Position numbers and translations under genes: made by a program. A stretch of 64,000 bases of DNA, taken from Arthrobacter hankyongi (lineage in GTDB: Bacteria > Actinomycetota > Actinomycetes > Actinomycetales > Micrococcaceae). The notes under the pieces were generated by a model. It was not told the origin of the DNA. It ran no database searches and saw only the letters and a program-made list of their open reading frames with translations. Location of the stretch: positions 186,001-250,000 of the forward strand of contig NZ_JAKLTQ010000002.1 in the NCBI RefSeq assembly GCF_022012395.1, in the 5' to 3' direction. The number at the start of each line of letters is the position of its first letter. The first letter of the stretch is position 1. Below are positions 44,758-63,106 of the stretch, piece after piece.

Positions 44758-44851
44758 TAATTCACTCCTTCTGCTGCGTCTGTGCCGACTGTCGGGCCGA
44801 AGGTTGTCCAGCCGGGACGCCCAGCCTTCATCATCGCTGGTATTTCGTGTA

Positions 44852-44880
44852 ATCCTACGAGATGTCGTAATCGCCTGCAA
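44852..44880 (-). promoter_or_regulatory. Promoter and palindromic operator of the second etf operon
   Basis: Leftward TTGCAG (44875-44880) and TAGGAT (44852-44857) are 17 bp apart. The perfect palindrome TACGA-GATG-TCGTA (44856-44869) occupies the downstream half of the spacer and its end is the first TA of the -10 box. Four other promoters to the right have the same layout. Confidence 0.7.
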
Positions 44881-44918
44881 TAGGTTTACGCACTTGCCTG
44901 GTGGACTGGGGCCGTCGC

Positions 44919-46229
44919 TCAGGCGGACGGCCGCTGAGGGGCCAGGACGTCGGAAACGAGCCTGTCGACCAACGGCTTGAGGTCGAGGTCATTCTCGGCC
45001 AGCCACTTATCGACATCTGCCCACGCGGTGGTGTCGCTGTAGTCGAGCTCCTCGGTGATGATCCGGCCCCACTCGTCGTTGGCCTCGAGTGCCGCAGCAA
45101 CGAAGCCGGAGCCGTCGATGCCGGCCGGTGCCTGTGTCCGTGCCTGCTGCAGCACCTGCTCGAAGTGGCGGTGCAGCGCCTCGCGGGTCTGCGGGTCCCA
45201 TTCCTTGAATTCGATCCCCTGCTTGTGCGACGCGGCGATTCCCTCCTGCAGGTTGCCGAACATCATGTCGGCGAACTGGTGCTCGATGTACACGTCCAAC
45301 CGGTCCCACATCAGCTGGCGGGCCGCCAGCGGAAGGCCGTCCCAGACCGCCTTGTTGATGCCGAAGGCTCCGCCGGAGCCGGTGAGCTGGATTTCGGGGT
45401 CCATGGTCCAGGAATTGCCGACTTCCAGCAGGCCGACGGTATTGGCCAGCACCACCGGGGCGGCGACGCAGTCGATGACGCCGCGCTGCAGGCCTTGGTA
45501 GACCTCGGTGGTGGGCAGGCTGACGCTGGTGGCTCCGAGCATTTCGATCGCGGGGCCGTGGGCCGGGGAGCCGGCGCGGATCTGCTTGCCATTGGCCTCG
45601 GCTGCCGAGCTGACCGGCTCTCCCGAGCACAGCAGCGGCGAGCCGCTGATCGGCAGCAGCGGGAGCAGGGGCTGGATGCCGTTGTCGGTCAACTCGCTCT
45701 TGATATCCTCCTGTCCAGCGCCGACAGCCATCCAGGATGAGGCGATCTGCAGCGACCCTGCCACGGGGGTGGGCGTGTGGATGAACATCAGGTCGGTGGC
45801 CAGGGCGTTGGCAGGGAACTTTTCGGGTTCCGCATAGGGCAGGTGGTAGCCGATGTCCACCATCCCATCGGCCAGGGCGGAGTTCATCTCGTTAACTGGC
45901 ACCCGGGAGCCGGCATACAGGATGTCGAACGTGATCTTTCCGCCGGACCATTCCGCTACGGCCTCGGCATAGGCTTCGTTGGGCGATGATGTTGCCGTAT
46001 CCGGTGCGGAGGCCAGCTGCATGGTCAGCGTCACCGGCTCCATGCCTGCCAGGGCCTCCTTGAAGTCCTCCTGCGATGCCCCGGCCGGGACCGACTGCTG
46101 GCTGGAAGTACCTTGGGCTCCGCCACCGCAGGCGGTCAGGAGCAGTGCTGCTCCGGCTAAGGCTGCCAAGCCCTTGGTCTGGCTTGATTCGAACCGGCTG
46201 CGGTTGCTTGTTTCCCAGAATTGTCCCAC
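44919..46229 (-). CDS. DctP-type substrate-binding lipoprotein (copy 1)
   Basis: 436 residues from a GTG at 46229; GGAGG six bases upstream rules out the ATG 15 bases earlier. A lipoprotein signal ends in the lipobox LLTAC. The mature part is a TRAP-transporter DctP fold: EAYAEAVAEWSGGKITFDIL, EANGKQIRAGSPAHGPAIEM, LGATSVSLPTTEVYQGLQRG and PLAARQLMWDRLDVYIEHQF. It binds an organic acid-type ligand outside the membrane. It is a paralogue of the divergent 46641-47921 gene. No DctQ or DctM membrane subunit is encoded in this window. Confidence 0.9.
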   Translation of the reverse strand: MGQFWETSNRSRFESSQTKGLAALAGAALLLTACGGGAQGTSSQQSVPAGASQEDFKEALAGMEPVTLTMQLASAPDTATSSPNEAYAEAVAEWSGGKITFDILYAGSRVPVNEMNSALADGMVDIGYHLPYAEPEKFPANALATDLMFIHTPTPVAGSLQIASSWMAVGAGQEDIKSELTDNGIQPLLPLLPISGSPLLCSGEPVSSAAEANGKQIRAGSPAHGPAIEMLGATSVSLPTTEVYQGLQRGVIDCVAAPVVLANTVGLLEVGNSWTMDPEIQLTGSGGAFGINKAVWDGLPLAARQLMWDRLDVYIEHQFADMMFGNLQEGIAASHKQGIEFKEWDPQTREALHRHFEQVLQQARTQAPAGIDGSGFVAAALEANDEWGRIITEELDYSDTTAWADVDKWLAENDLDLKPLVDRLVSDVLAPQRPSA

Positions 46230-46304
46230 GCGATTCCTCCACATGTTGTCGCATTCGCGGCAGCTGGCCAGCGGGGCCAGGCACCCTTGCCTGAAGCAGA
46301 TTGG

Positions 46305-46333
46305 AATTTACGGTATGTCGCAGACAACGTCAA
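46305..46333 (-). promoter_or_regulatory. Promoter and operator of DctP copy 1
   Basis: Leftward TTGACG (46328-46333) and TAAATT (46305-46310) are 17 bp apart. TACGG-TATG-TCGCA (46309-46322), a degenerate copy of TACGA-N4-TCGTA, overlaps the -10 box in the same way as at 44852-44880. Confidence 0.6.
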
Positions 46334-46640
46334 TAGACTGAATTCCTTGCGAAGCTGCTTGCGCATCAGGTGGCGGTTCTGCCTTGTAAAATCAGGCCTA
46401 TGTTCCTTCATGGCCGACCATTGTAGTCAAATTTATCCTTGACCACCATGACGAAGTCTCGTAGTCTCAACCGAAATAAGGGGAATTTGGGAAGGCGAAG
46501 CGACGGCACTTCGCGGTCATGCACTGTTGTTCGACTTCTACTGTGACGTGGTGGCCCGGTTGCCGGCCTGCCGGCTGATTCCGGCAAGTGCACGGATGCC
46601 TTCAGCGGGCCATCACGGCACCACTACGAGAGGCACCAGA
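46334..46640. other. Divergent intergenic region between the two DctP genes
   Basis: No convincing gene. It holds the rightward promoter/operator at 46439-46467. From there to the chosen start of DctP copy 2 is a leader of about 165 bases without a clear RNA fold; in-frame alternative starts at 46527 (TTG) and 46596 (ATG) lack ribosome sites. Confidence 0.5.
46439..46467 (+). promoter_or_regulatory. Promoter and operator of DctP copy 2
   Basis: TTGACC (46439-46444) and TAGTCT (46462-46467) are 17 bp apart. The palindrome GACGA-AGTC-TCGTA (46450-46463) ends in the first TA of the -10 box, as in the other copies. Confidence 0.65.
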
Positions 46641-47921
46641 TTGAACCGTAAACGTTCGTTCCGCCCGGCTGCTGCCGGACTGACGCTGCTGGCACTGTTT
46701 CTGGGAGGCTGCAGCGCCTCCTCCGGTACTGCAGCAAGCCAGGAATCCGTCGAGCCGGGTTCATCCAAGGAGGAGTATGCGGCCGCGCTGGCCGGGATGG
46801 AGCCGGTGACGCTGACCATGCAGCTGCCCTCCGCACCCAAGTCCACGACGTCGGCTCCCAACGAAGCGTATGCCGCCGCCGTGGAGGAGTGGTCCGGGGG
46901 CAAGATTAAATTCGATATCCTTTATGCCAATTCCCGGGTAACCATCAATGAGATGAATGCCGCGTTGGCGGATGGGCTGGTCGACTCCGGGATGCACATG
47001 CCGGTCACCGAACCCGAGTCCTTCCCTGCCAACACCCTGGCGGGTGATCTTATGTTCCTGCAGGAGTCGACCCCGCTGGCCGGGTCGATGCAGCTGGTCT
47101 CTTCCTGGATTGAGTTCGGTGCGCAGCAGGAAGCCATCAGCAACGAGTTGGAGGAGTACGGCATCCAGCCGCTGCTGCCGCTGCTGCCGACCAGCGGAAC
47201 CTCGCTGCTATGCAATGGCCAAGCCGTGACATCCCTTGGGGAGGCCAAAGGCAAGCAGATCCGGGCTGGCGCGCCGTCGAACGTGCCGGCCATCGAGGTG
47301 CTCGGTGCAACCGCCGTCAGCCTGCCCGTCGCGGAGGTCTACCAGGGCCTGCAACGCGGGGTCGTGGACTGCGCCGCCGGGAATGCCGTGCTAGCCAACA
47401 CCGTGGGCCTGTTTGAGGTCACCACGGACTGGACCCTCGATCCCGAAGTCCAGTTGGCCGGTACCTCGATGTCCTTCGGGTTCAACAAGGACCGGTGGGA
47501 CAGCCTGCCGCTGGCTGCCCGACAGCTGCTGTGGGACCGGCTGGACGGCTACATCGAGCAGCACCTCGCCACCACAGTGATCAAGCAGACCGGTGAGGCC
47601 ATCGGGGTGGCGAACAAGGCCGGGGTCAAGTTCCACGAGTGGGCCCCGGACGCCCGGGACGCGATCAAGGCCCACCTGAACAGTTTCCTCGAGGAAGCAC
47701 CAGGACAGGCCCCGAAGGACGTGGACGGCGCTGCCTTCGTGGAAGCGGCCAAGACGGCCAACGACCGGTGGAAGACCATCATCACCGAGGACCTCGGCTT
47801 CAAGGACGACACCGCCTGGTCCGAGCTGGATAGCTGGATTTCGGAGAACGAACTGGACGTCAGTCCGCTCTCAGACAGGCTGATGGAGGAAGCGCTCCTC
47901 CCGCACCGGCCTGCGGCCTAA
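46641..47921 (+). CDS. DctP-type substrate-binding lipoprotein (copy 2)
   Basis: 426 residues from a TTG at 46641, chosen because GAGAGG stands upstream and a normal lipoprotein signal then begins (LNRKRSFRPAAAGLTLLALF, lipobox LGGC). The mature chain is colinear with copy 1: ALAGMEPVTLTMQLPSAP, NEAYAAAVEEWSGGKIKFDI, GEAKGKQIRAGAPSNVPAIE and LGATAVSLPVAEVYQGLQRG. It is followed after 48 bases by a ferredoxin gene. Two binding proteins under the same operator suggest two related ligands, or a sensing role for one of them (inference). Confidence 0.88.
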   Translation: MNRKRSFRPAAAGLTLLALFLGGCSASSGTAASQESVEPGSSKEEYAAALAGMEPVTLTMQLPSAPKSTTSAPNEAYAAAVEEWSGGKIKFDILYANSRVTINEMNAALADGLVDSGMHMPVTEPESFPANTLAGDLMFLQESTPLAGSMQLVSSWIEFGAQQEAISNELEEYGIQPLLPLLPTSGTSLLCNGQAVTSLGEAKGKQIRAGAPSNVPAIEVLGATAVSLPVAEVYQGLQRGVVDCAAGNAVLANTVGLFEVTTDWTLDPEVQLAGTSMSFGFNKDRWDSLPLAARQLLWDRLDGYIEQHLATTVIKQTGEAIGVANKAGVKFHEWAPDARDAIKAHLNSFLEEAPGQAPKDVDGAAFVEAAKTANDRWKTIITEDLGFKDDTAWSELDSWISENELDVSPLSDRLMEEALLPHRPAA

Positions 47922-47969
47922 GCGGCTGCCGGAACTGGCAGGCAGTATCTATACGGAGGAAGAGGAATC

Positions 47970-48296
47970 GTGACCTACGTCATTGCACAACCCTGTGTCG
48001 ACGTCATGGACAAGGCTTGCATCGAGGAATGCCCCGTCGACTGCATCTACGAGGGCGAGCGGGCCATGTACATCCATCCGGATGAGTGCGTGGACTGCGG
48101 CGCCTGCGCGCCGGTCTGCCCGGTTGAAGCCATCTACTACGAGTCGGAGACTCCTGAGGAATGGGAGGACTATGCCCGGATCAACGTGGAGTTCTTCGAG
48201 GAGTTGGGGACGCCCGGCGGTTCCCGCAATGTAGGCCCCATCGGCAAGGATCACCCGGCGGTGGCCGTGCTGGAGCCCCAGGGCCAGCCCGGCTAG
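47970..48296 (+). CDS. fdxA: 7Fe ferredoxin (FdI/FdxA type)
   Basis: 108 residues from a GTG at 47970 (GGAGG upstream). Cys9, 17 and 50 fit the [3Fe-4S] cluster and Cys21, 40, 43 and 46 the [4Fe-4S] cluster; Cys25 matches the extra Cys of Azotobacter FdI, all displaced by one residue. It carries electrons at low potential. It lies between the binding protein gene and korB, so it is the natural acceptor for KorAB and donor for the nearby Rieske oxygenase or P450 (inference). Confidence 0.94.
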   Translation: MTYVIAQPCVDVMDKACIEECPVDCIYEGERAMYIHPDECVDCGACAPVCPVEAIYYESETPEEWEDYARINVEFFEELGTPGGSRNVGPIGKDHPAVAVLEPQGQPG

Positions 48297-48313
48297 GAAA
48301 CGCCGCACCGGCA

Positions 48314-48354
48314 GCCGCAGGCCCTCCCCGGGAATCCCGGGGAGGGCCTGCGGC
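48314..48354 (+). terminator. Terminator after the ferredoxin gene
   Basis: A 19-bp GC-rich stem (48314-48332 with 48336-48354) with a three-base loop, 17 bases after the ferredoxin stop. Confidence 0.75.
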
Positions 48355-48422
48355 ATGGCCGATCAGGTTTGCCGGCAGCGCCGGCGGCGTGCGCCCGGTG
48401 AAGTTAGGCCCTGGCAGGGCAA

Positions 48423-48474
48423 GACAAAGGGACCTCCGGACAGGGCGTAACACCCTGCCGAAGGTCCCTTTGTC
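48423..48474 (-). terminator. Terminator of the Rieske-korAB unit
   Basis: GACAAAGGGACCT (48423-48435) pairs with AGGTCCCTTTGTC (48462-48474); an inner CAGGG/CCCTG stem extends it. It lies 22 bases past the korB stop. Confidence 0.7.
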
Positions 48475-48496
48475 GCCGCTGGCGCGGCCCCTCAGC

Positions 48497-49582
48497 TCAG
48501 ACGACGGTCCAGGTGTCGCCGCTGTGCAGCAAGTTGTCCAGGGCTGTCGAGCGGTCGGTGATGCCTTCGCTGGCGCTGCGTACCTGTTCCCGGGCGACGT
48601 CGTCGTACGTCTGGCGCTCTACCGAGCGGAAGATGCCGATGGGGGCCTGGGTGAGGTGTCCGGAGCCGGTCAGCCGCGAGAGCGCGAAGGCGGTAGTGGG
48701 ATCGGCTGCATGGGCGTCATGGACGAGGATCCGGTCCGCGCCCACATCTGCGACGTCGACCACCCGCAGCGAGCCGGACAGCGGGTCCCTGACGATGCCC
48801 CGGATGCCCAGCCCGTCCTCGCCCTTCGGGCCGAACCGGATGGGCTCGCCATGGACGAGCGGAATGACGGCATCCGCCTTGGTCTCCGGGTTCTTGACCG
48901 CGTCGAACGCGCCGTCGTTGAAGATCGGGCAGTTCTGGTAGATCTCCACCAGGGACGTGCCGCGGTGGGCCGTCGCCGCGGAGAGCACCGAGGTCAGGTG
49001 CTGGCGGTCGGAGTCGATGGTGCGCGCCACGAAGCTCGCTTCGGCGCCCAGAGCCAGGGACACCGGGTTGAGCGGGCTGTCGGGGGAGCCCTTCGGAGAG
49101 GACTTGGTGATCTTGCCGGATTCCGAGGTGGGGGAGTACTGACCCTTGGTCAGGCCGTAGATCCGGTTGTTGAACAGCAGGATGGTCATGTTCACGTTCC
49201 GGCGCAGGGCATGGATCAGATGGTTTCCGCCGATGGAGAGGGCGTCGCCGTCTCCGGTGACCACCCATACGGACAGGTCGGGACGGCTGGTGGCCAGGCC
49301 GGTGGCAATGGCCGGCGCCCGTCCGTGGATCGAGTGCATCCCGAAGGTGTCCAGGTAGTACGGGAAGCGGGAGCTGCAGCCGATGCCGGAGATGAAGACA
49401 ATGTTTTCCCGCTTCAGTCCCAGCTCCGGCAGGAACCCTTGGACGGCAGCGAGCACGGCGTAGTCGCCGCAACCCGGACACCAGCGCACTTCCTGGTCGC
49501 TGGTGTAATCCTTCCGGCTCTGTGGTGCCTCGCTGGCGGGAACATCGCGCAGGCCCGGGAAGGGAAGCCTGGTGGAGGTCAT
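48497..49582 (-). CDS. korB: 2-oxoacid (2-oxoglutarate):ferredoxin oxidoreductase beta subunit
   Basis: 361 residues. It binds thiamine diphosphate and one [4Fe-4S] cluster: the TPP motif is GDGDALSIGGNHLIH; cluster ligands are Cys35 and Cys38 (WCPGCGDY), Cys69 (GIGCSSRFPYYL) and a later Cys (YQNCPIFN). With KorA it decarboxylates a 2-oxoacid with CoA and reduces ferredoxin. The start overlaps the korA stop by four bases. It is the last gene of the leftward unit that begins with the Rieske oxygenase. Confidence 0.94.
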   Translation of the reverse strand: MTSTRLPFPGLRDVPASEAPQSRKDYTSDQEVRWCPGCGDYAVLAAVQGFLPELGLKRENIVFISGIGCSSRFPYYLDTFGMHSIHGRAPAIATGLATSRPDLSVWVVTGDGDALSIGGNHLIHALRRNVNMTILLFNNRIYGLTKGQYSPTSESGKITKSSPKGSPDSPLNPVSLALGAEASFVARTIDSDRQHLTSVLSAATAHRGTSLVEIYQNCPIFNDGAFDAVKNPETKADAVIPLVHGEPIRFGPKGEDGLGIRGIVRDPLSGSLRVVDVADVGADRILVHDAHAADPTTAFALSRLTGSGHLTQAPIGIFRSVERQTYDDVAREQVRSASEGITDRSTALDNLLHSGDTWTVV

Positions 49583-51525
49583 CCGATTGACTCCTTCGTC
49601 AAGTTTTGGCCGCTACCGGCAGGTTCAACCAGCTGCAGGATGGCGTCGGCCAGTTCGGAGGCCCGCAGCGGCAGGCCGCGCACCTGGTTGTAGCCGGCAA
49701 CGTCCACCAGGTACTTGGCGCGCAGCAGCAGGGACAGCTGCCCGAGGTTCATCTCCGGCACCAGGACCTTTTCATAGCGCTTCAGCAGCGTCCCGAGGTC
49801 CTTGGGGAACGGGTTCAAATGGCGCAGGTGTGCCTGGGCGACGGCATAGCCCTGGTCGCGCACCTCGCGGACAGCGGCTCCGATCGGGCCGTAGGTGGAC
49901 CCCCAGCCCAGGACCAGCAACTTCGCGTCGCCATGTGGATCGTCGACCTGCAGCGGCGGGAGCGACTCGGCGACCCGCTCGACCTTGGCCTGCCGGATGC
50001 GCACCATATGGTCGTGGTTGGCAGGGTCGTAGGAGATGTTGCCGTGTCCGTCCGCCTTCTCGAGGCCACCGATCCGGTGTTCCAGGCCTGCGGTTCCTGG
50101 CAGGGCCCACGGCCGTGCCAGGGTCTGTTCGTCGCGCAGGTAGGGCCAGAACTCCGGCCCGCCGTCGGCGTTGACGTGGTTCGGACTGGTGGCGAAATCC
50201 GGGTCGATCCGGGGCAGGTCCGCCAGTTCGGGGATCCGCCAGGGCTCGGACCCGTTCGCCAGCATGCCGTCCGAGAGCAGCATGACGGGCGTGCGGTAGG
50301 TGACGGCGATCCGGGCCGCCTCCACAGCGGCGTCGAAGCAGTCGGCAGGCGATTGCGGGGCAATGATCGGCAGGGGGGATTCCCCATTTCGGCCGAACAT
50401 GGCCTGCAGCAGGTCTGCCTGCTCGGTCTTGGTCGGCAGCCCTGTCGACGGGCCGCCGCGCTGGACATTGACGACGACCATGGGCAGTTCCAGCATGACG
50501 GCAAGCCCGATGGTCTCCGCCTTGAGCGCAATGCCCGGCCCCGACGTCGTCGTCACGCCCAGGGCGCCGCCGAAGGAGGCGCCGAGGGCGGCGCCGACGC
50601 CGGCAATCTCGTCCTCGGCCTGGAAGGTGGTGACGCCGAACTGCTTGTGCTTGCTCAGCTCGTGCAGGATGTCGGAGGCCGGCGTAATGGGGTAGGAACC
50701 CAGGAACAGCGGCAGGCCGGACTGTGTGGAGCCGGCGATCAGGCCGTACGCCAACGCCGTGTTGCCGGTGATATTGCGATAGGTGCCCGGTGCCATCGGT
50801 GCGGGCTTGACCTCGAACTTCACGGCAAAGGCCTCGGTGGTCTCGCCGAAGTTCCACCCGGTTTTCAGCGCGGCAATATTGGCGTCGCGGATCTGCGGGG
50901 AGGAAGCAAACCGGCGTTCCAGGAAGGTGAGGGTCGATTCGACGGGACGGCTGTACATCCAGGAAAGCAGGCCGAGGGCGAACATGTTCTTGGCGCGGGC
51001 CGCGTCCTTGCGGGTCAGGCCGAAGTCCTTGACCGCCTCGACGGTCAGGCCGGTGAGGTCGAAGGCATGGACGGAGTAAGCGTCCAGCGTGCCGTCCTCC
51101 AGCGGATTCTCCTCGTAGCCGATCCGTTTGAGGGCCCGGCTGGTGAAGTCGTGGGTGTCGACGATGATCGTCGCGCCCGCAGCCAGATCCGCGAGGTTGG
51201 CCTTCAGGGCTGCCGGGTTCATGGCGACCAGAACGCCCGGGGCATCGCCGGGGGTGAGCACATTGTGGTCGGCGAAGTGGACCTGGAAGGAGGAGACGCC
51301 GGGCAGGGTGCCCTGGGGTGCCCGGATTTCAGCCGGGAAGTTCGGCAGCGTCGACAGGTCGTTGCCGAAGGCCGCGCTTTCCTGGGTGAACCGGGACCCG
51401 GTGAGCTGCATCCCGTCCCCGGAGTCACCGGCGAAGCGGATGACGACGCGGTCGAGTTGGTGGATGGTGTCACGGTGCGGTTCCGTGCTGTTTGGAGTGG
51501 CCAGTGTGGCCTGCGCTTCCGGCAT
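49579..51525 (-). CDS. korA: 2-oxoacid (2-oxoglutarate):ferredoxin oxidoreductase alpha/gamma fusion subunit
   Basis: 648 residues, the actinobacterial KorA form with the gamma domain first (VIRFAGDSGDGMQLTGSRFT, TLPNFPAEIRAPQGTLPGVS) and the alpha domain after about residue 210 (PITPASDILHELSKHKQFG, FQAEDEIAGVGAALGASFGG, TSGPGIALKAETIGLAVMLE). The ATG at 51525 follows AGGA. A 7-bp hairpin (GGCCGCA/TGCGGCC near 51547-51567) lies between it and the Rieske gene, which may lower but not stop read-through. Confidence 0.94.
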   Translation of the reverse strand: MPEAQATLATPNSTEPHRDTIHQLDRVVIRFAGDSGDGMQLTGSRFTQESAAFGNDLSTLPNFPAEIRAPQGTLPGVSSFQVHFADHNVLTPGDAPGVLVAMNPAALKANLADLAAGATIIVDTHDFTSRALKRIGYEENPLEDGTLDAYSVHAFDLTGLTVEAVKDFGLTRKDAARAKNMFALGLLSWMYSRPVESTLTFLERRFASSPQIRDANIAALKTGWNFGETTEAFAVKFEVKPAPMAPGTYRNITGNTALAYGLIAGSTQSGLPLFLGSYPITPASDILHELSKHKQFGVTTFQAEDEIAGVGAALGASFGGALGVTTTSGPGIALKAETIGLAVMLELPMVVVNVQRGGPSTGLPTKTEQADLLQAMFGRNGESPLPIIAPQSPADCFDAAVEAARIAVTYRTPVMLLSDGMLANGSEPWRIPELADLPRIDPDFATSPNHVNADGGPEFWPYLRDEQTLARPWALPGTAGLEHRIGGLEKADGHGNISYDPANHDHMVRIRQAKVERVAESLPPLQVDDPHGDAKLLVLGWGSTYGPIGAAVREVRDQGYAVAQAHLRHLNPFPKDLGTLLKRYEKVLVPEMNLGQLSLLLRAKYLVDVAGYNQVRGLPLRASELADAILQLVEPAGSGQNLTKESIG

Positions 51526-51628
51526 GGCTGGTTCCTGACTCGGCAAGGCCGCAGACCAAGTGCGGCCGTTTCGTTTGGATGGATCTGCTGCAGTTCGATG
51601 GCTTGGGTGGCGGCCTGCCACCCGTGCG

Positions 51629-52936
51629 TCAGCCCATTTGCTGGCTGGCGGCGAAGTGGCTGCGCCAGTCCTGGCCTTCGTCGAGCATGATGTTCGCCGG
51701 CTTGGGCGAATCCTTGGGGCTGAGGCCGAGCGGGTCCTCGCCCTGGGCCACCCGCTTGGTGTTGTCCACCAGTTGGCGGCGGTACCGGGCGATGGCCAGG
51801 TCCGCCGGCACCAGATGCTCGATCGGATACAGGTCGACGGGGCCCATGGACTGATTCACGCCCCAATCCTCAGGGATGAACCGCTGCATGCCGGTGAAGC
51901 TCTCTCCACGGCGCATCGCCTCGCGGTCCTGCAGCCAGTTGTTGGAGCGGTTCGGCCTGTCCGGGAGATCGTGGTACTCGCGGCCCAGGCCCCACTTGTT
52001 CATGCCGGTTTCGTCAATGCCGTAGTACTCCAGTACCTCCTGGCGGGCCGTTCCGACGCCGATTTGGCGGGCTTCGGACCAGAACACCATAAAGAACAGC
52101 GAACGGTTGTCGTCCACCGGCAGAGTGATCTGGACGATGTTGTCCGGCTGGATGTAGACCGTGGTGGGGTGGACGAGGCTGGTGATGCGTGCCTGCCGCT
52201 TCAGCTGGCCGTTCTCTTCGAAGCTGCTGATGGCCGCGTAGCGGAAGCCAAAGTCCGTTTCCTGGACCTCGATGGTCGGTGCCAGGTCCTTGGCGATCAC
52301 GCCCGTGGTGACCTTGCGCTGGGTGGTGCCGAAGACCGGGGCCGGTCCTTTGCCCTCCCTGAGCTGTTTCAGGGCGTCCTGGTGGAGCACGCCGGTGTGC
52401 GTGGTATCGATCAGCCCCTCCACGAGGCGGGTGTAGTTGGCGGAGGAAGCCACGATCTCCACCACCCGGTTTTCCTCCGGCACGTCGAAGAAGGTGTGGT
52501 TGGGCATGGGCGGTTCCAACTCAGGCGGGCCGAAGTAGCCCCAGACAATGCTGCCGGCCTCGCGTATGGAGTAGGACGGCTGGCGGACCCGCTCCTTGAA
52601 GCGGGGGTCCTTCACGTTCGGGGCATCCACAATGGCCCCGTCGACGGCGAACTTCCAGCCATGGTAAAGGCAGCGCAGGCCGCCCTGCTCGTTCCGGCCC
52701 AGGCACAGCGACGCACTGCGGTGCGTGCACAGTTCATCCAGCAGTCCCAGCCGGCCTTCCGTATCCCGGAAGACGACGTAGTCCTGCCCCAGCACTGTCA
52801 CCCGGTGCGGATCACCGTCCGGCTCGGCCACATCGCTGACCAGGCAGATGGGCAACCAGTACCGTCGCATGGTGTCGTGCATCGGGTTGCCGGGGCCGAC
52901 TTTCATCAGCACTTTTTTCTGCTCGATCGGATCCAC
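51629..52936 (-). CDS. Rieske non-haem iron oxygenase, alpha subunit
   Basis: 435 residues from a GTG at 52936 with AAAGGA upstream; the ATG at 52963 would begin 13 bases from an operator and lacks such a site. The Rieske [2Fe-2S] ligands are Cys70/His72 (CTHRSASLC) and Cys89/His92 (CLYHGWKF). The mononuclear iron site shows E-G-L-I-D177-T-T-H180-x4-H185. The size and single-subunit form fit phthalate/vanillate-type (group I) oxygenases, which hydroxylate or demethylate aromatic or alicyclic substrates. No reductase gene accompanies it. Confidence 0.93.
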   Translation of the reverse strand: MDPIEQKKVLMKVGPGNPMHDTMRRYWLPICLVSDVAEPDGDPHRVTVLGQDYVVFRDTEGRLGLLDELCTHRSASLCLGRNEQGGLRCLYHGWKFAVDGAIVDAPNVKDPRFKERVRQPSYSIREAGSIVWGYFGPPELEPPMPNHTFFDVPEENRVVEIVASSANYTRLVEGLIDTTHTGVLHQDALKQLREGKGPAPVFGTTQRKVTTGVIAKDLAPTIEVQETDFGFRYAAISSFEENGQLKRQARITSLVHPTTVYIQPDNIVQITLPVDDNRSLFFMVFWSEARQIGVGTARQEVLEYYGIDETGMNKWGLGREYHDLPDRPNRSNNWLQDREAMRRGESFTGMQRFIPEDWGVNQSMGPVDLYPIEHLVPADLAIARYRRQLVDNTKRVAQGEDPLGLSPKDSPKPANIMLDEGQDWRSHFAASQQMG

Positions 52937-52976
52937 GTGATTGCTTCCTTTCGCGTCATCCACGCATGCTCATTTG

Positions 52977-53021
52977 TACGAGATATCGCATAAGCCTACG
53001 GTTCTTCGTAATTGAGAGCAA
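52977..53021 (-). promoter_or_regulatory. Promoter of the Rieske-korAB unit with two operators
   Basis: Leftward TTGCTC (53016-53021) and TAGGCT (52993-52998) are 17 bp apart. TACGG-TTCT-TCGTA (52997-53010) overlaps the -10 box in the usual position, and a second copy TACGA-GATA-TCGCA (52977-52990) covers the expected start point. Confidence 0.65.
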
Positions 53022-53155
53022 GGGTTTTTGATCCTATGGGGTGGCGGGGGCCATTTGGGGCCGGCAGGCGAACGATGGGCGACCCAAAGCAAGCGTGCGG
53101 ACAGCAGTGGCGGCGCCGGAATGGCTCCACCGTGGAGATTCTTGGCGAAAAACTG

Positions 53156-53185
53156 TTGTGCCCACTCATCGAAATATCGTAGGCT
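53156..53185 (+). promoter_or_regulatory. Promoter and operator of the aldehyde dehydrogenase-P450-kinase operon
   Basis: TTGTGC (53156-53161) and TAGGCT (53180-53185) are 18 bp apart. ATCGA-AATA-TCGTA (53168-53181) ends in the first TA of the -10 box. It would drive nine genes from 53401 past the window end. Confidence 0.62.
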
Positions 53186-53400
53186 GTGGCGAAATAAGAT
53201 CGTCACGACAACGAGGTTCTGATGACTGCCACGAAAAAACCCTGCCTGACAGGACCTTTCGTCTCCAAGCATTAAAGCCCTGCCTCAGACTCAGGACCTT
53301 TACCGCGCCCAGCGGTAATTGCACAGCCAGGGCGGTTCGCACCTGGCAACGACCCGCACTTCCCTATGTCAACCTCCGCGATCGGAAAGCAGGATCACCC
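53186..53400 (+). other. Leader of about 210 bases with a possible 17-codon leader peptide
   Basis: A long untranslated leader precedes the aldehyde dehydrogenase start. It contains a small frame 53222-53275 (ATG to TAA, MTATKKPCLTGPFVSKH) with GAGG five bases upstream. No known riboswitch fold was recognised. Bases 53022-53155 upstream of the promoter hold no gene. Confidence 0.35.
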
Positions 53401-54855
53401 TTGAATTCAGCAGATTTCCAGTTGGTCAGCGGCGCTGATTTGTCCTTCTCCGGCGTCGTCAACGTGTATAATCCGGCCCGGATCGACGAAGCCGTCGGAA
53501 CCATTCCCCGCATGGCCGGCGGGGACGTCGATAAAGTCGTGCAGGCCGCCCACCGCGCCCAGCCGGGCTGGGCGGCGCTGTCTCCAGTGGAACGGTACGA
53601 GCGGATCGCCCAGGCCCTGGCTGCCATCGACATGGCCGGTGCCGATGAACTGCTCACCCGCGAACACGGCAAGGTCCGGGCCGATGCGGCCCGGGAACTG
53701 AAATATCTGGACTATCCCGTCAAGTTCCTCCAGACCCACCTGCAGTGGCTCGCCGAAGGGGAGGACCTCGGCGACAACGGAATGCACCACACGAAGGTCT
53801 ACCGTGCCCCGTACGGCGTCGTGGGCCTGCTCACCCCGTGGAATGTGCCGATCGGCATGGGCATCATCACTATCGCCCCGGCACTGCTGGCCGGCAACTC
53901 CGTCATTGCACACGTGCCGGTCACGGCTCCGCTGACGGTTCTGAGGATCTTCGGGCAGCTGGCCGCCGCCCTGCCAAAGGGCGTGCTGTCGCTGATCTCC
54001 TCGCCGGACACCGCCGTGGCACAGGCTCTGGTGGAGCATCCCCTGGTACGGAACGTGCACTTCACCGGAAGTACCCCCATCGGGGCACTGGTGGCCAAGG
54101 AAGCCGCCGACACAATGACCACCGTCACCCTCGAACTGGGCGGCAACGACCCCGCCGTGGTGCTGGACGACGCCTTGGACGATGCCGCCATCTATGGCCG
54201 GTTCATTGCCGCCGCGTTCCCGTTCGGCGGACAGGCCTGCATCGCGCTGAAGCGCCTGTACGTTCCGAAGGCGCGGGTGGGCGAGGTCGTCGAAGGCCTG
54301 GGCGCAGCTCTAACCAACACCGTCGTGGGCGACGGACTGGACCCGGCCACGACCATGGGGCCGCTCCACACGGCCGTCATCCGGGACAACGTCAAGCGTC
54401 TACTCGAGGAGGCCCGCGCTGCCGGCGGCACCGTCCAGGAATACGGCATGCTCGCCTCGGACCCGGACAAGGGCTATTTCATGCTGCCGGCCGTAGTCAG
54501 CGGCCTGGAGAACTCTGCCTCTGTGGTGGCCGAGGAGCAGTTCGGCCCCGTGCTGCCGGTGATCGGCTACGACTCGGTGGACGAGGCCATCGCCATGGCC
54601 AACGACTCCGAGTACGGACTGGGCAGCTCGGTCTGGTCCGCAGACGTCGAGTACGCGGCACGCGTCGCCGGCCGGATCGACGCTGGCATGACTTGGATCA
54701 ACGCCCACGGCGGGGCCGGCGTTGACGGCCGGGCACCCTGGGGCGGCGTGAAACTCAGCGGTACCGGCCGCGGCGGCGCCAACCGGGCCGGGCTGGAGGG
54801 CTTCACCGAAGCCCATGCGGTCATCATGCCCGGCTCGGGCGTCCGCGGGGCGTGA
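53401..54855 (+). CDS. NAD(P)+-dependent aldehyde dehydrogenase
   Basis: 484 residues from a TTG at 53401 with AGGA upstream; this start gives the usual family length. PYGVVGLLTPWNVPIGMGII, VHFTGSTPIGALVAKEAADT, LELGGNDPAVVLDD (catalytic Glu) and FGGQACIALKRLYV (catalytic Cys) are present. It oxidises an aldehyde to the acid. The likely substrate is an aldehyde produced by the alcohol dehydrogenase at the other end of this operon (inference). It is the first gene of the long rightward operon. Confidence 0.9.
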   Translation: MNSADFQLVSGADLSFSGVVNVYNPARIDEAVGTIPRMAGGDVDKVVQAAHRAQPGWAALSPVERYERIAQALAAIDMAGADELLTREHGKVRADAARELKYLDYPVKFLQTHLQWLAEGEDLGDNGMHHTKVYRAPYGVVGLLTPWNVPIGMGIITIAPALLAGNSVIAHVPVTAPLTVLRIFGQLAAALPKGVLSLISSPDTAVAQALVEHPLVRNVHFTGSTPIGALVAKEAADTMTTVTLELGGNDPAVVLDDALDDAAIYGRFIAAAFPFGGQACIALKRLYVPKARVGEVVEGLGAALTNTVVGDGLDPATTMGPLHTAVIRDNVKRLLEEARAAGGTVQEYGMLASDPDKGYFMLPAVVSGLENSASVVAEEQFGPVLPVIGYDSVDEAIAMANDSEYGLGSSVWSADVEYAARVAGRIDAGMTWINAHGGAGVDGRAPWGGVKLSGTGRGGANRAGLEGFTEAHAVIMPGSGVRGA

Positions 54856-54963
54856 TGCTATCCATCCTGCCCCCGGCGCCGGGCCGGGGGTACACAACCC
54901 ACACGGTGCGCCGCCCGGTCCCGGGGCCGGGCAGTGCACCCTGCCGACAGCGAAGGACTCTGC

Positions 54964-55797
54964 ATGTCTGAGGTTTCGAACAACGCCAGTACTGCCTACG
55001 ATTCCGTTGACTACGTCAAGAAACTGGATCTGGGCGGCAGGGGCGTCGTGGTGCTCGGTGCCGGCCAAGGCATCGGCGGTGCGGTCGCCGATGCAGTGTC
55101 GCAGGCCGGCGGCCGGGTGCTGTGCGTAGACATTGACGCCGAGCAGGCCCGCCGGACCGCGGAACGCAGCGGCGGGGAAGGCTTGGCGGCGGACGTGACC
55201 GACCGCGCCGCCATGGAAGCGGTCTTCCAGCGCGCCGAAGAGTGGTTCGGTGATGATTTTTACGGCATCGTCGACGTCGTCGGCGTTACCGTCCCGCAAC
55301 TGCTGGCCGATACCGATGAAGACTCCATCCAGCGCCAGTTCGATCTGGTTCTGCGGCATGCCCTGTTGATGACCCAGATCGGGATTCCCAAGCTGGCCCG
55401 TCGCGGCCGCGGCAGCGTGGTTTACATCGGTTCGTTGGCTGGGGTGGCGAGCACGAAGCGCCTGGGCCTCTACGGTGCGGCCAAAGCCGCCGTCCACCAA
55501 CTCTCCGCTGCCGCGGCCCACGAGTTCGGCCCGGCCGGCGTGCGCGTGAACACCGTAGTTCCCGGCCGCATCCTTGCCTCCGGCGGCGACCCCAACCCGA
55601 ATCCCGATGCCCTGCGCCCGGTCGAACTGGCCGTCCCGCTAGGCCGTGGCGGACACCCGGACGACATCGCCTCCGCCACACTCTTCCTGCTCTCCGACCT
55701 GGCCGGCTACATCTCCGGCGTCCAGATTCCGGTCGACGGTGGGATCAGCGTCGTCACCCCGCTGCCGAGCACCCAGCCGGCCAACCGCCAGGGCTAG
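54964..55797 (+). CDS. Short-chain dehydrogenase/reductase
   Basis: 277 residues. The nucleotide loop is GAGQGIGG at 33-40, Asp56 (CVDID) points to NAD+ preference, and the active site is Ser157, Tyr170 and Lys174. GAAGGA lies before the ATG at 54964. It would oxidise a secondary alcohol, possibly the hydroxyl placed by the P450 or Rieske enzyme (inference). It lies 108 bases after the aldehyde dehydrogenase and 59 before the P450. Confidence 0.92.
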   Translation: MSEVSNNASTAYDSVDYVKKLDLGGRGVVVLGAGQGIGGAVADAVSQAGGRVLCVDIDAEQARRTAERSGGEGLAADVTDRAAMEAVFQRAEEWFGDDFYGIVDVVGVTVPQLLADTDEDSIQRQFDLVLRHALLMTQIGIPKLARRGRGSVVYIGSLAGVASTKRLGLYGAAKAAVHQLSAAAAHEFGPAGVRVNTVVPGRILASGGDPNPNPDALRPVELAVPLGRGGHPDDIASATLFLLSDLAGYISGVQIPVDGGISVVTPLPSTQPANRQG

Positions 55798-55856
55798 CCC
55801 CGAGCGCACTTCCAGCACGTGCACGTTCCAACCTCGTCCGATACAAAGGAGTTCCA

Positions 55857-57053
55857 ATGACGGAAGCCACGAAGAGCCCGGTACTGGATATTGTCAAGGT
55901 CAATTCGGACCATGGCCACGCCCAGGCCTACGCCGAGCTGCGCGAACACGGACCGGTGGTTCGCGGTGAGGCCTTCGGCGGCTACTGGGCGGTGGTCAGC
56001 TACGACGCCATCCGGCGGGCAGCCAACGACGTGGGCAACTTGTGCTCGGGCCAGGGCTCGACCATCCCGGCTCTGGGCACCGCCTTCCGGCCCATCCCGG
56101 TTGAGGTCGATCCGCCGGACCACCGCAAGTACCGGCAGCTGCTGGTTCCCGTCTTGCGTCCGGAGAAGGTCGCGGAATGGGAAGACCTGATCCGCAGGGA
56201 AACTGACATCGCCATCGACCGCTTCATCGAGGCCGGATCGGCCGACCTGATGGAGATCGCACGCTACGTCCCGCCGGCGGTCATTGCCTTCATTCTTGGC
56301 GTGTCCGACGAAGGCCCGACCATGGTCAAGCTCACCGCGGACCTGAACAACGCTGCCACGGCCGGCGATCCCGAGGCCAAGAAGGCGGCCAATATGGCGT
56401 TGTTCCAGTTCGTGGACCAGATCGTGACGGACGCCGAGGGCACCGACCGCGATGACATGCTGGGCATGATCGCCAACGCACAGATCGACGGCGCGCCGAT
56501 CGGGCACATGAAGGCGGTCGCCATGGCCGTCACGGTGGTGATCGCGGGCCAGGAAACCACCGTCAACGGCATCTCCAGCGCGCTGTGGCTGGTGGCAGCG
56601 CACCAGGAAGTCAAGCAGCGCCTGATCGAGAACCCGGAGTTGATCCCCAATGCGGTGGAGGAATCCCTGCGGCTGGAGACCCCGGTGCAGATGATGGGCC
56701 GGACCGCGACCACCGACATTGAACTCGAAGGCGTCCGGATCACGGAGGGCGAGCGTGTCGGCCTGGCCTGGGGTGCGGCGAACGTTGACCCGGCGAAGTT
56801 CGAGGACCCGGAAAAGTTCAACATCGACCGTCCAAACAACCCGCATGTGGCCTTCGGTCACGGCATCCACCGGTGCGCCGGCGAGCACTTGGCCCGTGCC
56901 GAAATGCGCATCGCCCTTGAGCAGGTCTTGGCCCGGATGCCTGACTACCGATTGGCCGGCGAGGTCGAGCTGGGCACCAGCGGCGCGATGAACCGCGGCG
57001 CCCACTCCGTTCCCGTCACCTTTACCCCGGGCGCCCGGGCATACCAGAACTGA
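55857..57053 (+). CDS. Cytochrome P450
   Basis: 398 residues, soluble bacterial class I type. I-helix A230-G-Q-E-T-T, K-helix E269-S-L-R272, and the haem loop FGHGIHRCAGEHLARAE with Cys340 as ligand. AAAGGAG precedes the ATG. It hydroxylates an organic substrate with O2 and two electrons from a ferredoxin; no dedicated ferredoxin or reductase is next to it. The nearest ferredoxin is the 7Fe protein at 47970. P450s of this form act on terpenes, fatty acids and steroids. Confidence 0.95.
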   Translation: MTEATKSPVLDIVKVNSDHGHAQAYAELREHGPVVRGEAFGGYWAVVSYDAIRRAANDVGNLCSGQGSTIPALGTAFRPIPVEVDPPDHRKYRQLLVPVLRPEKVAEWEDLIRRETDIAIDRFIEAGSADLMEIARYVPPAVIAFILGVSDEGPTMVKLTADLNNAATAGDPEAKKAANMALFQFVDQIVTDAEGTDRDDMLGMIANAQIDGAPIGHMKAVAMAVTVVIAGQETTVNGISSALWLVAAHQEVKQRLIENPELIPNAVEESLRLETPVQMMGRTATTDIELEGVRITEGERVGLAWGAANVDPAKFEDPEKFNIDRPNNPHVAFGHGIHRCAGEHLARAEMRIALEQVLARMPDYRLAGEVELGTSGAMNRGAHSVPVTFTPGARAYQN

Positions 57054-57079
57054 ACGCCGATCCGATCTGGAGAAAATCC

Positions 57080-58216
57080 ATGCTGACCAGCCTTGATGAG
57101 TCCCTGTACCACCAGTCCCCGCTGCTGTTCCAGCAGGCAGCCGTCACCGACCACCGCTTCTACGATCGCTACGCGTACACCACCATGGCTCCGGACGGTT
57201 CGGCTGCCCTGCTCACCGGCATGGGGGTCTACAAGAACCTCAATGTGATGGACGGCTTCGTCACTACCCAGGCAGGCCAGTCCGTGCAGCGGAATATCCG
57301 CATCTCCCGTCCGCTGCGTCCCATCGTGGAACCTCTGACGCTGGGCCCGATGCGCACCGAGTTCCCGGTAGCGTTCCAGGAAACCCGGATGATCTGCGAG
57401 CCGAACGAGTACGGTGACGCGTTTGACCTGACCTTCCGCCCGGTCTTCACCAGGCTGGAGAACCCGCATTACGGCGAAACTGACGGCCGTGTGACCCAGG
57501 ACTACCGCCGCTTCAGCCAGGTCGGCTGGACCAGCGGCACCCTGGTGGTGGACGGCCAGGAGCACACCCTCGACAAGTGGTTCGGCTGGCGCGACCACTC
57601 CTGGGGCGTGCGTCCGGGCGTCGGCGGCTTCGAACCGTTTACCGGCACGCGCAACCGCGGCGGTATTCCGTCGGCCAGCCGGGGCGGCGGCCTGGGCATC
57701 CTGCTGGTGTACGTGGCGTTCGCGACCGACAGCTACTCCGGATTCTTCTTCACCATCGAGGACGAGAACGGCAAGCGCATCTACCTCGACGGCGCCATGC
57801 AGGTCAATGGCGAGGAACCCTCGGAGATTGTCGATGGCTCCCATGAGATCAAGTTCATCCCCGGCACCCGTCTGTACAGCACCATGAGCATCCAGGCCAA
57901 GACCGCCGACGGGCAGGTCTGGGACCTGGACGTGGAGGCCATCGGCAGGGCCTGGGTCTACCGCGGCACCGGCTACGACCACGGCTGGAACGACACCAAG
58001 GGTCTGGGAGCCTGGCGCGGCGACGAGCTGACGGTGGAGACGGATGTCTACGGTGTGGGCGACGTCGAGGAGACCGTCATGCCCGACGGCGGCCGGATCC
58101 GGCCCATCCACCGCGAGCAGCCGGTGCGCGTGCGGGTACGCGGCGAGGAAGGCAACGGGCACTCGCCGCTGTTCGTCGTCGGCCCGAACCGCGTCTACGG
58201 GCTGGAGGAGCGGTGA
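57080..58216 (+). CDS. Lipocalin-like (AttH/CrtC-type) protein with RDHS motif, copy 1
   Basis: 378 residues without signal peptide. The pattern is beta-rich in two halves. The centre reads Q-V-x4-G-T-L-x3-G-x5-D-K-x2-G-W-R171-D-H-S-W-G-V-R, which matches the 62076 protein at the same spacing. This motif is seen in CrtC/AttH-like and tocopherol-cyclase-like proteins of unknown reaction, some of which hydrate double bonds or bind hydrophobic terpenoids. It is 26 bases after the P450 and overlaps the kinase gene by four bases (GTGA). It may bind or hydrate the pathway intermediate; this is speculative. Confidence 0.72.
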   Translation: MLTSLDESLYHQSPLLFQQAAVTDHRFYDRYAYTTMAPDGSAALLTGMGVYKNLNVMDGFVTTQAGQSVQRNIRISRPLRPIVEPLTLGPMRTEFPVAFQETRMICEPNEYGDAFDLTFRPVFTRLENPHYGETDGRVTQDYRRFSQVGWTSGTLVVDGQEHTLDKWFGWRDHSWGVRPGVGGFEPFTGTRNRGGIPSASRGGGLGILLVYVAFATDSYSGFFFTIEDENGKRIYLDGAMQVNGEEPSEIVDGSHEIKFIPGTRLYSTMSIQAKTADGQVWDLDVEAIGRAWVYRGTGYDHGWNDTKGLGAWRGDELTVETDVYGVGDVEETVMPDGGRIRPIHREQPVRVRVRGEEGNGHSPLFVVGPNRVYGLEER

Positions 58217-59679
58217 GCCTGGCGGCGGACCGCTCCGCCTGGGCCAAGACCCGTGCCCTGCCCAAGGGGCGCGCACTCCAGCTGGTGCGGCAGGCGGCCA
58301 CCGGAGTGTACGACCCGGATACCGCCAACGCCGAGCGCAGGCGGATGGCGATGCGGCTGGACCAGGCCTTGGTGCGGCTGATTACCACCGAGAGCCGGCT
58401 GCCGCAGATCGAAGCCGAGTTCTCGGCCCGGCATGAGGCCAACCTTGGCCGTGCCCGCAACCTGCTTGGCGGGGTGGACGGGCCGGACGCTCCCACGGCA
58501 GGCGAAGCGGTCAGCAACGCCGTGCGGTCCCTCGGCGAAAGTCTTCGGGACTGTCCGGAGACCGAGTCCGCAGGAATTTGGAACCTGCTGCGCGATATCG
58601 CCGCCACGGACAAGGCCGGACGCCAGGCCCTCGAGCAGGCCATCGCCGAGACCCGGGATGCCCCGCACCCTGGTGCCGCCAACACTCCGGCTGGAACTCC
58701 GCTGGATGCGGCTGCCCTCGACGCCTATCTCGGCACATGGGTCTGGGACGGACCCCGGCCAAAGGTTGCCGGAGTCGAAGCTCTTGTGGGCGGACAATCC
58801 AAATCAACGTTCCTTGTCGACATTGAACCCGGGAGCGGGCCGGCGGGATGGCGCGATGGGGTCGTTGTCCGTATGGACACGGGTAATTTCGACTTTTCCG
58901 TGACGGAGGAGTACCCGCTGCTGGAGCGGTTGTTTGAGGCAGGCATCAGTGTGCCCGAACCACTGCTCCTCGAACCTCGGGGAGATGTTTTCGGGCAGCC
59001 ATTCCTGATCACCCGCCGACTCGCCGGCGCGGCCCCGGGCATGCTCATCGACACCGCCGGTGCGACGCCGGAGGCCGCGCTGGCCCTGGCCGAGGCACTC
59101 GGACGGCTGCATTCGGTGCCCGTGGCGGACCTGGTCGATTCGCCGCCTGCCGACCTGCCGGAGATCGTCGAAGCCGCCCGCGCCAACTATGAGCAGTCCT
59201 GGCGCAGCTCCTCGCTGCCGCCCTCGGTCGCCGTCGAGTTGGGACATGTGTGGATCCGCGAGAACGTGCACAAGCTCACCGCGAAGCCCTGTCTGGTGCA
59301 TGGGGACGCGGGCCTGCACAACATCCTGCTCGATGAAGGGCAGCTGACCGGAATGCTGGATTGGGAGTTCGCGCATGTGGGCGACCCGGCCGAGGACCTG
59401 GCGTACTGCCGGCCCGCTGTGGAGCGGTTAGTGCCCTGGGAGCAGTTCATGGAGCGCTACCGCGACAGCGGCGGACCGGAAATCTCCGCGGACCGCCTGG
59501 CCTTCTTCGGTGTCTGGTGCCAGTTGAAGAACTCGGCACTGGCCGCCGGAGTCCTGCGCGATGTCGCGGCGGGCAAGATCAACAACATCGACATGCTCGT
59601 GACCGCGATCGACACCCATGCCCGCTTCGAAGCGATGCTGTCCCAGCACCTCGATGCCCTGATTTCCGCAGGACACTAG
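58213..59679 (+). CDS. APH-fold small-molecule kinase with N-terminal helical domain, copy 1
   Basis: 488 residues. Residues 1-155 are an all-helical extension (DUF6285-like by appearance); the kinase follows with GGQSKSTF (193-200) as the ATP loop, H363-G-D365-x4-N370 as the catalytic loop and D383-W-E as the metal site. It belongs with the phosphotransferases that include the kinase domain of ACAD10/11 and LvaA, which phosphorylate hydroxyacyl-CoAs so that the hydroxyl can leave. A similar use here is inference. The GTG start overlaps the previous stop. Confidence 0.88.
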   Translation: MSLAADRSAWAKTRALPKGRALQLVRQAATGVYDPDTANAERRRMAMRLDQALVRLITTESRLPQIEAEFSARHEANLGRARNLLGGVDGPDAPTAGEAVSNAVRSLGESLRDCPETESAGIWNLLRDIAATDKAGRQALEQAIAETRDAPHPGAANTPAGTPLDAAALDAYLGTWVWDGPRPKVAGVEALVGGQSKSTFLVDIEPGSGPAGWRDGVVVRMDTGNFDFSVTEEYPLLERLFEAGISVPEPLLLEPRGDVFGQPFLITRRLAGAAPGMLIDTAGATPEAALALAEALGRLHSVPVADLVDSPPADLPEIVEAARANYEQSWRSSSLPPSVAVELGHVWIRENVHKLTAKPCLVHGDAGLHNILLDEGQLTGMLDWEFAHVGDPAEDLAYCRPAVERLVPWEQFMERYRDSGGPEISADRLAFFGVWCQLKNSALAAGVLRDVAAGKINNIDMLVTAIDTHARFEAMLSQHLDALISAGH

Positions 59680-59708
59680 CCGGACACCACGGCTGACCAG
59701 AAGGGACG

Positions 59709-60905: not shown

Positions 60906-60965
60906 TCCCTCCACCGTCCCGTCCATCCAAGGTTTACCGACGCCTACCTTTAAGAAGGGGAAGCC

Positions 60966-62066: not shown

Positions 62067-62075
62067 GGAGCCCCC

Positions 62076-63086: not shown

Positions 63087-63106
63087 GGGGAAGCCGAGGA
63101 GGAACC

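Follow-up and report, generated by a model that had tools for sequence, protein, structure and literature searches.

A 64,000-nucleotide stretch of the Arthrobacter hankyongi genome (hereafter the window; positions 186,001–250,000 of contig NZ_JAKLTQ010000002.1, in our numbering G000:C12:186001-250000, from an assembly of 5.19 Mb in 67 contigs) contains part of a catabolic gene cluster whose promoters share a 14-bp palindrome, TACGA-N4-TCGTA. We propose that this palindrome is, with high probability, the operator of an IclR-family regulator repressing the cluster by promoter blocking, and that two proteins encoded on the same contig, RegA and RegB, serve it. The operator is usually a tandem of two palindromes (O1 and O2) with a 20-bp period, the second often half-decayed, a feature that the first-pass annotation of this DNA had missed.

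With a 20-bp distance between the centres of its two 14-bp palindromes, the full unit would suit a tetramer of two dimers bound to the same helix face. In the window, O1 is predicted to occupy the spacer between the -35 and -10 hexamers, its last two bases being also the first two of the -10, and O2, where present, would overlie the start region; a regulator bound in this way would block RNA polymerase, and an inducer derived from the pathway substrate would release it. RegA and RegB, sister duplicates whose DNA-binding regions are identical and whose sensors have diverged, would both serve one set of operators. Binding, repression, tetramer formation, the common use of the operator by both regulators and the identity of the inducer are what we infer from sequence.

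Placement of the palindrome at promoters

All six copies reported by the first-pass annotation were recovered at their coordinates (Table 1). Their number carries no weight, since at up to two mismatches the window holds eight matches versus a mean of 7.31 (standard deviation (sd) 2.71) in 100 shuffles; position, register and conservation do carry weight. Six of the eight are intergenic, although intergenic DNA, as delimited by codon-model gene calls, makes up 11.5% of the window (binomial P ~5e-5); the remaining two, at 48135 and 62241, are within genes. A genome-wide pattern search found two perfect copies, at window position 44856 and at C12:298130, both inside the cluster. With at most one mismatch it found 29 places. 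All seven located in the cluster are intergenic; among the 22 others, 17 of 19 classified places are coding and two intergenic, C12:129318 is coding, one is probably coding and one is unclear. The reversed pattern ATGCT-N4-AGCAT gave 141 places versus 29 for the palindrome and, being a different sequence, was not used as a control. A genome pattern with TTG-N-C and an 18-bp spacer, allowing two mismatches, proved too loose (137 forward and 165 reverse matches; 242 and 263 for its reversed control) and was dropped.

The register was assessed by scoring sigma70-like hexamer pairs at 91 offsets per site, all promoters named here being predicted. At each of the five window promoters the top pair, without ties, has its -10 starting at the last two bases of the operator, which is the single best of the 91 offsets and agrees with the earlier claim that the palindrome ends in the first TA of a -10 at all five. 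The -35, which has no base in common with the operator, also reaches its maximum there when scored alone (3.40 versus a mean of 1.53, sd 0.48). Together with the intergenic excess, this bears out the view that the shared placement is not due to chance. That AT-rich promoter spacers mimic a loose palindrome would agree with the eight loose matches where 7.3 are expected; it is contradicted by the location, spacing and promoter register of the copies and by their recurrence in other bacteria, and its probability is negligible.

The tandem structure is best preserved in the window at positions 52977 and 52997, which form a single pair serving one promoter and have the top tandem score on contig C12 with a matrix derived from other organisms. 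Further full pairs are located at C12:257699/257719 and C12:287746/287766, and a partly decayed copy stands 20 bp downstream of O1 at the etfB, dctP2 and aldehyde dehydrogenase promoters. The half-site CGAAAT (at least five of six letters) occurs exactly 20 bp from O1's own in 9 of 12 promoters (nine from this genome, three from G525, an actinomycete of another family), and at any offset other than these two in at most one of the 12. Across the 13 operator regions of this genome it is found at +20 in eight.

RegA, RegB and related loci in other bacteria

The first-pass annotation had seen no regulator gene in the window and had recommended looking for a GntR, IclR, TetR or LacI gene flanked by the same site. 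None of 61 matches to the IclR helix-turn-helix, from a scan that scored 150 of 267 candidates, falls in the window, IclR being the one regulator family scanned there. An IclR gene of this description, regA, is found on the same contig, 37 kb beyond the end of the window, and is preceded by three operator-like copies (two mismatches each, in steps of 19-20 bp); regB lies 59 kb past the end. Both proteins pass the Pfam cut-offs for HTH_IclR (RegA 33.3 and RegB 35.1 versus 22 bits) and IclR_C (69.7 and 79.4 versus 24 bits). They are 65-66% identical overall, while the next match by score in the genome reaches 26%.

The DNA-binding regions of RegA and RegB are identical at 68 of 68 residues, with 34 codons silently different and no replacements, whereas the sensor regions (174 codons) are 58% identical, with 48 silent and 73 replacement differences (Fisher P 9e-12 for the silent versus replacement split). 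Silent changes per conserved codon are similar in both parts (34/68 and 48/101), so that recent gene conversion of the DNA-binding part is ruled out as an explanation. The codon differences indicate that purifying selection for the same DNA target keeps the two DNA-binding regions identical. In the tree RegA and RegB are sisters with moderate support (93/83) and the related protein of G525 stands outside the pair, suggesting that the gene was duplicated after the separation from G525.

Identical recognition surfaces should allow RegA and RegB to share sites, which makes a two-signal regulon plausible. We tentatively suggest a natural two-input regulon, in which two metabolites are sensed, through the two proteins, at a single tandem operator present at a dozen promoters; if mixed tetramers form, each promoter would compute an AND-like logic. 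RegA adjoins acyl-CoA and carboxylase genes and perhaps senses the side-chain (acyl-CoA) branch; RegB follows ring-cleavage genes and perhaps senses the ring-cleavage branch. Other paralog pairs also have the DNA-binding region better conserved than the sensor (85/57% identity in Cupriavidus KK10, 76/62% in Achromobacter, 57/32% in Diaphorobacter and 60/55% in Variovorax). However, the same holds between species (85% and 54% between RegA and the G525 protein), and these pairs lend the two-input proposal weak support.

More simply, RegA might carry most of the control, or might run the regulon alone, RegB having the same DNA-binding region by ancestry and acting at other sites or being inactive. 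Three copies stand upstream of regA versus one weak site upstream of regB, and the equivalent cluster of G525 has one regulator of this clade. Nevertheless, 34 silent and no replacement differences in the 68 DNA-binding codons, compared with 73 replacements in the sensor, speak for a recognition surface that has been kept, and regB lies downstream of an operon series whose first gene has the perfect operator at C12:298130; we consider sole control by RegA unlikely. A strong inverted repeat, CCGAGGCTGCCGG ... CCGGCAGCCTCGG, without a T run, separates regB from the final RraA gene (C12:309205-309255), and regB is probably transcribed from a promoter of its own.

Of 395 genomes sampled from the family, none of the 394 others encodes a protein similar to RegA (E up to 1e-50). 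The RegA clade was found in 2 of 394 genomes of the class, this one included (E up to 1e-45), and in 3 of 399 genomes of the order of G785, G785 included (E up to 1e-80). This rarity of relatives precluded footprinting in close species.

Six proteobacterial loci with related IclR genes (37-50% identity) each contain a palindrome pair exactly 20 bp apart, and 14 sites from these loci were used to build a matrix (the relatives' matrix). Applied to C12:1-400000 at 13 bits or more, it places 14 of 15 matches in the intergenic DNA of the cluster (1.8% of the sequence), and the ten best matches on the contig all fall in that DNA. Lowering the threshold to 10 bits yields 35 matches, comprising 20 cluster-intergenic, 3 cluster-coding and 12 outside. 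Strong matches are thus not equally common in coding DNA, the outcome that the first-pass annotation had named as fatal to its regulon.

Conversely, a matrix built from the window sites was applied to 15 loci with related IclR genes (the six proteobacterial ones, eight of 11 plasmid records and G525; L116 and L140 are close relatives and not independent). A 20-bp pair scores above all 40 simulated sequences in 12 of the 15, and in 7 of the 9 loci not used to notice the tandem. The 20-bp spacing averages 26.7 over the 15 loci versus 11.9 (sd 1.0) for 26 other spacings. The tandem score reaches at most 14.3 in 18 C12 pieces of 20 kb outside the cluster, and ten loci of the same genome (3.5-3.7 kb) with unrelated IclR genes have no tandem (best 7.9). 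Two later loci, G995 and G1055, score 23.4 and 23.5 with the window matrix versus maxima of 21.4 and 19.7 in 100 simulations; with the relatives' matrix one of them passes (22.7 versus 16.6).

The best natural comparison is offered by G525, where one IclR gene of the RegA/RegB clade (63% identity) lies in a compact 26-kb cluster, 21 other genes of which match the cluster described here, 19 of them at 58-85% identity. They encode aldehyde dehydrogenase, P450, CoA transferases, acyl-CoA dehydrogenase, ligase, citryl-CoA lyase-like protein, Rieske/LigXa, GFO/IDH, reductase, LigB, amidohydrolase and three RraA-type proteins, among others. Three of four G525 operator sites have the promoter geometry of this genome at the best offset; the fourth (36454) has no convincing promoter either way (scores 4.0 and 5.0; rank 4 and 1 of 91).

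A 14-bp palindrome is a form of site common to many regulator families, and the lock to the -10 at the window promoters would suit a promoter class of an alternative sigma factor. Assignment to a GntR, TetR or LacI regulator or to such a sigma factor is nevertheless very improbable: the tandem recurs near IclR genes of the RegA/RegB clade in two phyla, the hexamers are ordinary sigma70-like ones, and the palindrome persists in proteobacterial loci with varying promoter geometry, which rules out a sigma element.

Several observations weigh against an IclR operator acting by promoter blocking. The geometry is not universal: the first nine sites of this genome had been picked for a visible promoter, and it is present at eight of them (etfB, dctP1, dctP2, Rieske-kor, aldehyde dehydrogenase, dctP3, SDR and ligase) and missing at the second P450, where 17 offsets score higher. 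It is absent in any of eight placements from the four regions scored afterwards (second Rieske operon, regA, acyl-CoA dehydrogenase, MBL/SDR). Overall, the operator lies over the -35, -10 or start of a predicted promoter at five of five window promoters and in 8 of 13 regions, and the geometry is absent in 5 of 13. The dctP1 promoter has no O2, and the site upstream of regB is weak (3.5). The sites of the relatives' matrix were picked by likeness to the window palindrome and are not wholly independent. The matrix scan covered contig C12, with the other contigs searched by pattern, and the final 59 kb of C12, which has no gene calls, adds one 13.2-bit match at 455486. L120, L146 and L147 fail the window-matrix test (reached by 4, 8 and 1 of 40 simulations; L146 has two copies 21 bp apart and the L147 regulator is only 35% identical), as does the second of G995 and G1055 with the relatives' matrix (19.0 versus a simulation maximum of 23.4). 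Operators in the proteobacterial loci do not stand at one fixed place relative to the -10, and the mode of action there and in the five regions without the geometry here may differ from promoter blocking.

The four late-scored regions slightly lowered our confidence in the main reading and slightly raised the probability of an activator, or of an activator plus repressor. PcaU/PobR-type IclR proteins of aromatic catabolism are activators, and the top NCBIfam model of RegA is that subfamily (PcaR/PcaU/PobR, TIGR02431), to which it is related in its aromatic-catabolism role and does not belong, its score being far below the cut-off (101.3 versus 284.75 bits). The blocking geometry is also absent from most scored proteobacterial regions, as from five of the 13 here. 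However, activators normally bind upstream of the -35, whereas O1 lies within the -35/-10 spacer and O2, where present, over the start at the five window promoters and three others, and activation in place of plain repression appears improbable to us.

Gene content of the regulon

The first-pass annotation had claimed a single regulon with a repressor-like operator position, which is upheld for the five window promoters; the regulon is larger than it saw. About 13 promoter regions with the operator extend over 67 kb (C12:230856-298130), mostly outside the window (Table 1). The cluster encodes P450s, LigXa-type Rieske oxygenases, a LigB-type dioxygenase, an amidohydrolase, LigK/RraA-type aldolases, CoA transferases, acyl-CoA dehydrogenases, a carboxylase and a citryl-CoA lyase-like protein (320.3 versus a cut-off of 193); one RraA protein passes the 4-carboxy-4-hydroxy-2-oxoadipate aldolase model (188.8 versus 179). 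Such a gene content suggests breakdown, by way of CoA thioesters, of an aromatic compound that bears a side chain. Literature searches for the pathway substrate found nothing relevant. As the regulon groups genes of one catabolic pathway, the inducer would point to the substrate.

The units named by the first-pass annotation mostly stand: ETF (electron-transfer flavoprotein) alpha and beta, tyrosine phosphatase, HtaA, both DctP proteins, KorB, Rieske/LigXa and most operon genes pass their Pfam cut-offs, whereas the cytochrome b561 is slightly below (29.0 versus 30.1), as is DUF7065 (21.9 versus 27). The nine-gene operon consists, in order, of aldehyde dehydrogenase, SDR, P450, unknown, APH kinase, epoxide hydrolase, Zn-alcohol dehydrogenase, DUF7065-like and APH kinase genes.

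Table 1. Operators, predicted promoters, regulated units and regulators; positions marked C12 are those of the contig, others those of the window.
Feature	Position	Strand	Remarks
O1, etfBA-cytochrome-phosphatase-HtaA operon	44856..44869	-	perfect TACGA-N4-TCGTA, 0 mismatches
O2, etfB promoter	44836..44849	-	half-decayed, 20 bp downstream; CACGAAATACCAGC read on -
O1, dctP1	46309..46322	-	2 mismatches; no recognisable O2
O1, dctP2-fdxA	46450..46463	+	1 mismatch
O2, dctP2	46470..46483	+	left half-site retained; ACCGAAATAAGGGG
O1, Rieske-korAB operon	52997..53010	-	1 mismatch
O2, Rieske-korAB operon	52977..52990	-	1 mismatch; 20 bp from O1
O1, aldehyde dehydrogenase-P450-kinase operon	53168..53181	+	2 mismatches
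O2, aldehyde dehydrogenase operon	53188..53201	+	left half-site retained; GGCGAAATAAGATC
etfB promoter	-35 44875-44880, -10 44852..44857	-	TTGCAG, TAGGAT, spacer 17
dctP1 promoter	-35 46328-46333, -10 46305-46310	-	TTGACG, TAAATT, spacer 17
dctP2-fdxA promoter	-35 46439-46444, -10 46462-46467	+	TTGACC, TAGTCT, spacer 17
Rieske-korAB promoter	-35 53016-53021, -10 52993-52998	-	TTGCTC, TAGGCT, spacer 17
Aldehyde dehydrogenase-P450-kinase promoter	-35 53156-53161, -10 53180-53185	+	TTGTGC, TAGGCT, spacer 18
ETF beta, ETF alpha, cytochrome b561-like, tyrosine phosphatase, HtaA	40578..44757	-	Pfam, gene calls
DctP-type solute-binding lipoprotein 1	44919..46229	-	PF03480
DctP-type solute-binding lipoprotein 2 and fdxA-like open reading frame	46641..48296	+	PF03480, gene calls; fdxA as named by the first-pass annotation
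Rieske/LigXa-type oxygenase, korA, korB	48497..52936	-	PF00355, PF19301, PF02775; korA as named by the first-pass annotation
Nine-gene operon	53440..64000	+	Pfam, gene calls; last gene crosses window end
Operators, second Rieske/CoA-transferase operon	C12:250471/250491		
Operators, DctP-DctQ-DctM operon	C12:257699/257719		
Operator, second P450	C12:281740		
Operators, SDR gene	C12:286684/286704		
Operators, IclR gene regA	C12:287727, 287746, 287766		
Operator, acyl-CoA dehydrogenase	C12:289340		
Operator between MBL-fold and SDR genes	C12:296994		
Operator, acyl-CoA ligase operon	C12:298130		perfect copy
RegA, IclR protein	C12:286845-287696		PF09339, PF01614; 286845-287573 called, frame extends
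RegB, second IclR protein	C12:309354-310172		HTH_IclR and IclR_C
G525 ligase promoter			TTGGCA-17-TAGACT
G525 CoA transferase promoter			TTGCCC-18-TAATGT
G525 aldehyde dehydrogenase promoter			TTGACG-17-TATCGT

Several features of the cluster are worth recording in their own right. The genes for the HtaA-domain protein and the tyrosine phosphatase (window 40578-41911) lie inside the electron-transfer flavoprotein operon of a catabolic regulon. APH-type kinases occur near DUF7064/DUF7065-like proteins as a recurring pair, twice in the cluster (window 57080-63086 and C12:276554-279052). Among the scanned genes there are four DctP lipoproteins versus one DctQ/DctM pair (window 44919-47921 and C12:257811-260494), and a single transporter may take its substrates from several DctP receptors. 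Three CoA-transferase family III genes are of double length (736-759 residues; C12:251855-267494), the family being matched in more than one stretch of each. A transposase fragment (DUF4096, below cut-off) stands between cluster parts at C12:276062-276343.

Outside this genome, the related IclR genes of the proteobacterial loci L116, L117, L118, L120, L121, L140, L142, L162 and L163 lie near an ADP-forming acyl-CoA ligase gene, often together with genes for a citryl-CoA lyase-like protein, MaoC, acyl-CoA dehydrogenase, SDR or CoA transferase, a recurring catabolic module.

Comparison with known systems

The best PDB sequence match of RegA is the Pca regulator 8eju. PcaU and PobR sites contain an additional direct half-site, versus the full second palindrome at 20 bp found here. 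A paralogous repressor pair with one operator set and different sensing is represented by GalR and GalS of E. coli; these, however, belong to the LacI family, whereas RegA and RegB are IclR proteins in which the whole 68-residue DNA-binding region is identical. No precedent for paralogous IclR regulators sharing an operator, or for two of them with an identical DNA-binding region, was recognised in the open-licence literature searched, where a single match looks like a chance 'TTGT' in a DNA motif. TtgV/TtgT are a candidate IclR precedent. Synthetic LacI/GalR chimeras, as described in PMC13056197, combine one DNA-binding domain with different ligand domains, yielding multi-input logic at a single operator. 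Those proteins are engineered, whereas RegA and RegB are a candidate natural counterpart in another family and a natural test case for two-sensor, one-operator control.

Tandem IclR sites with centres 18-22 nt apart have been predicted for 94 orthologous groups and ascribed to tetramers (Suvorova and Gelfand 2021, PMC8222616). The spacing found here falls within that range, 20 bp being the best of 27 spacings. The operator resembles the group-1 operators of that source in its TNCG-N6-CGNA spacing, which corresponds to the GTNCG-N5-6-CGNAC class and the 12-bp subgroup iv, in its tandem copies and in its association with a catabolic regulon. Subgroup iv, NGTYCRAW4TYGRACN, is the nearest motif published there; TACGA departs from it by an A where the motif has Y and by lacking a conserved G outside, and a TACGA-initial word was not found in the main text of PMC8222616. 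The exact 14-mer TACGAAATATCGTA was not found in the literature searched, which is weak evidence.

What began as a visually spotted palindrome is now a defined regulon that has a candidate regulator, and a motif of two TACGA-N4-TCGTA copies 20 bp apart can be used to find targets of this IclR clade in Actinomycetota and Proteobacteria. The IclR protein, the group-1-like palindrome and the tandem spacing are of known kinds; the regulon, the TACGA half-site of this IclR clade, its persistence across two phyla and the regulator pair with an identical DNA-binding region are new.

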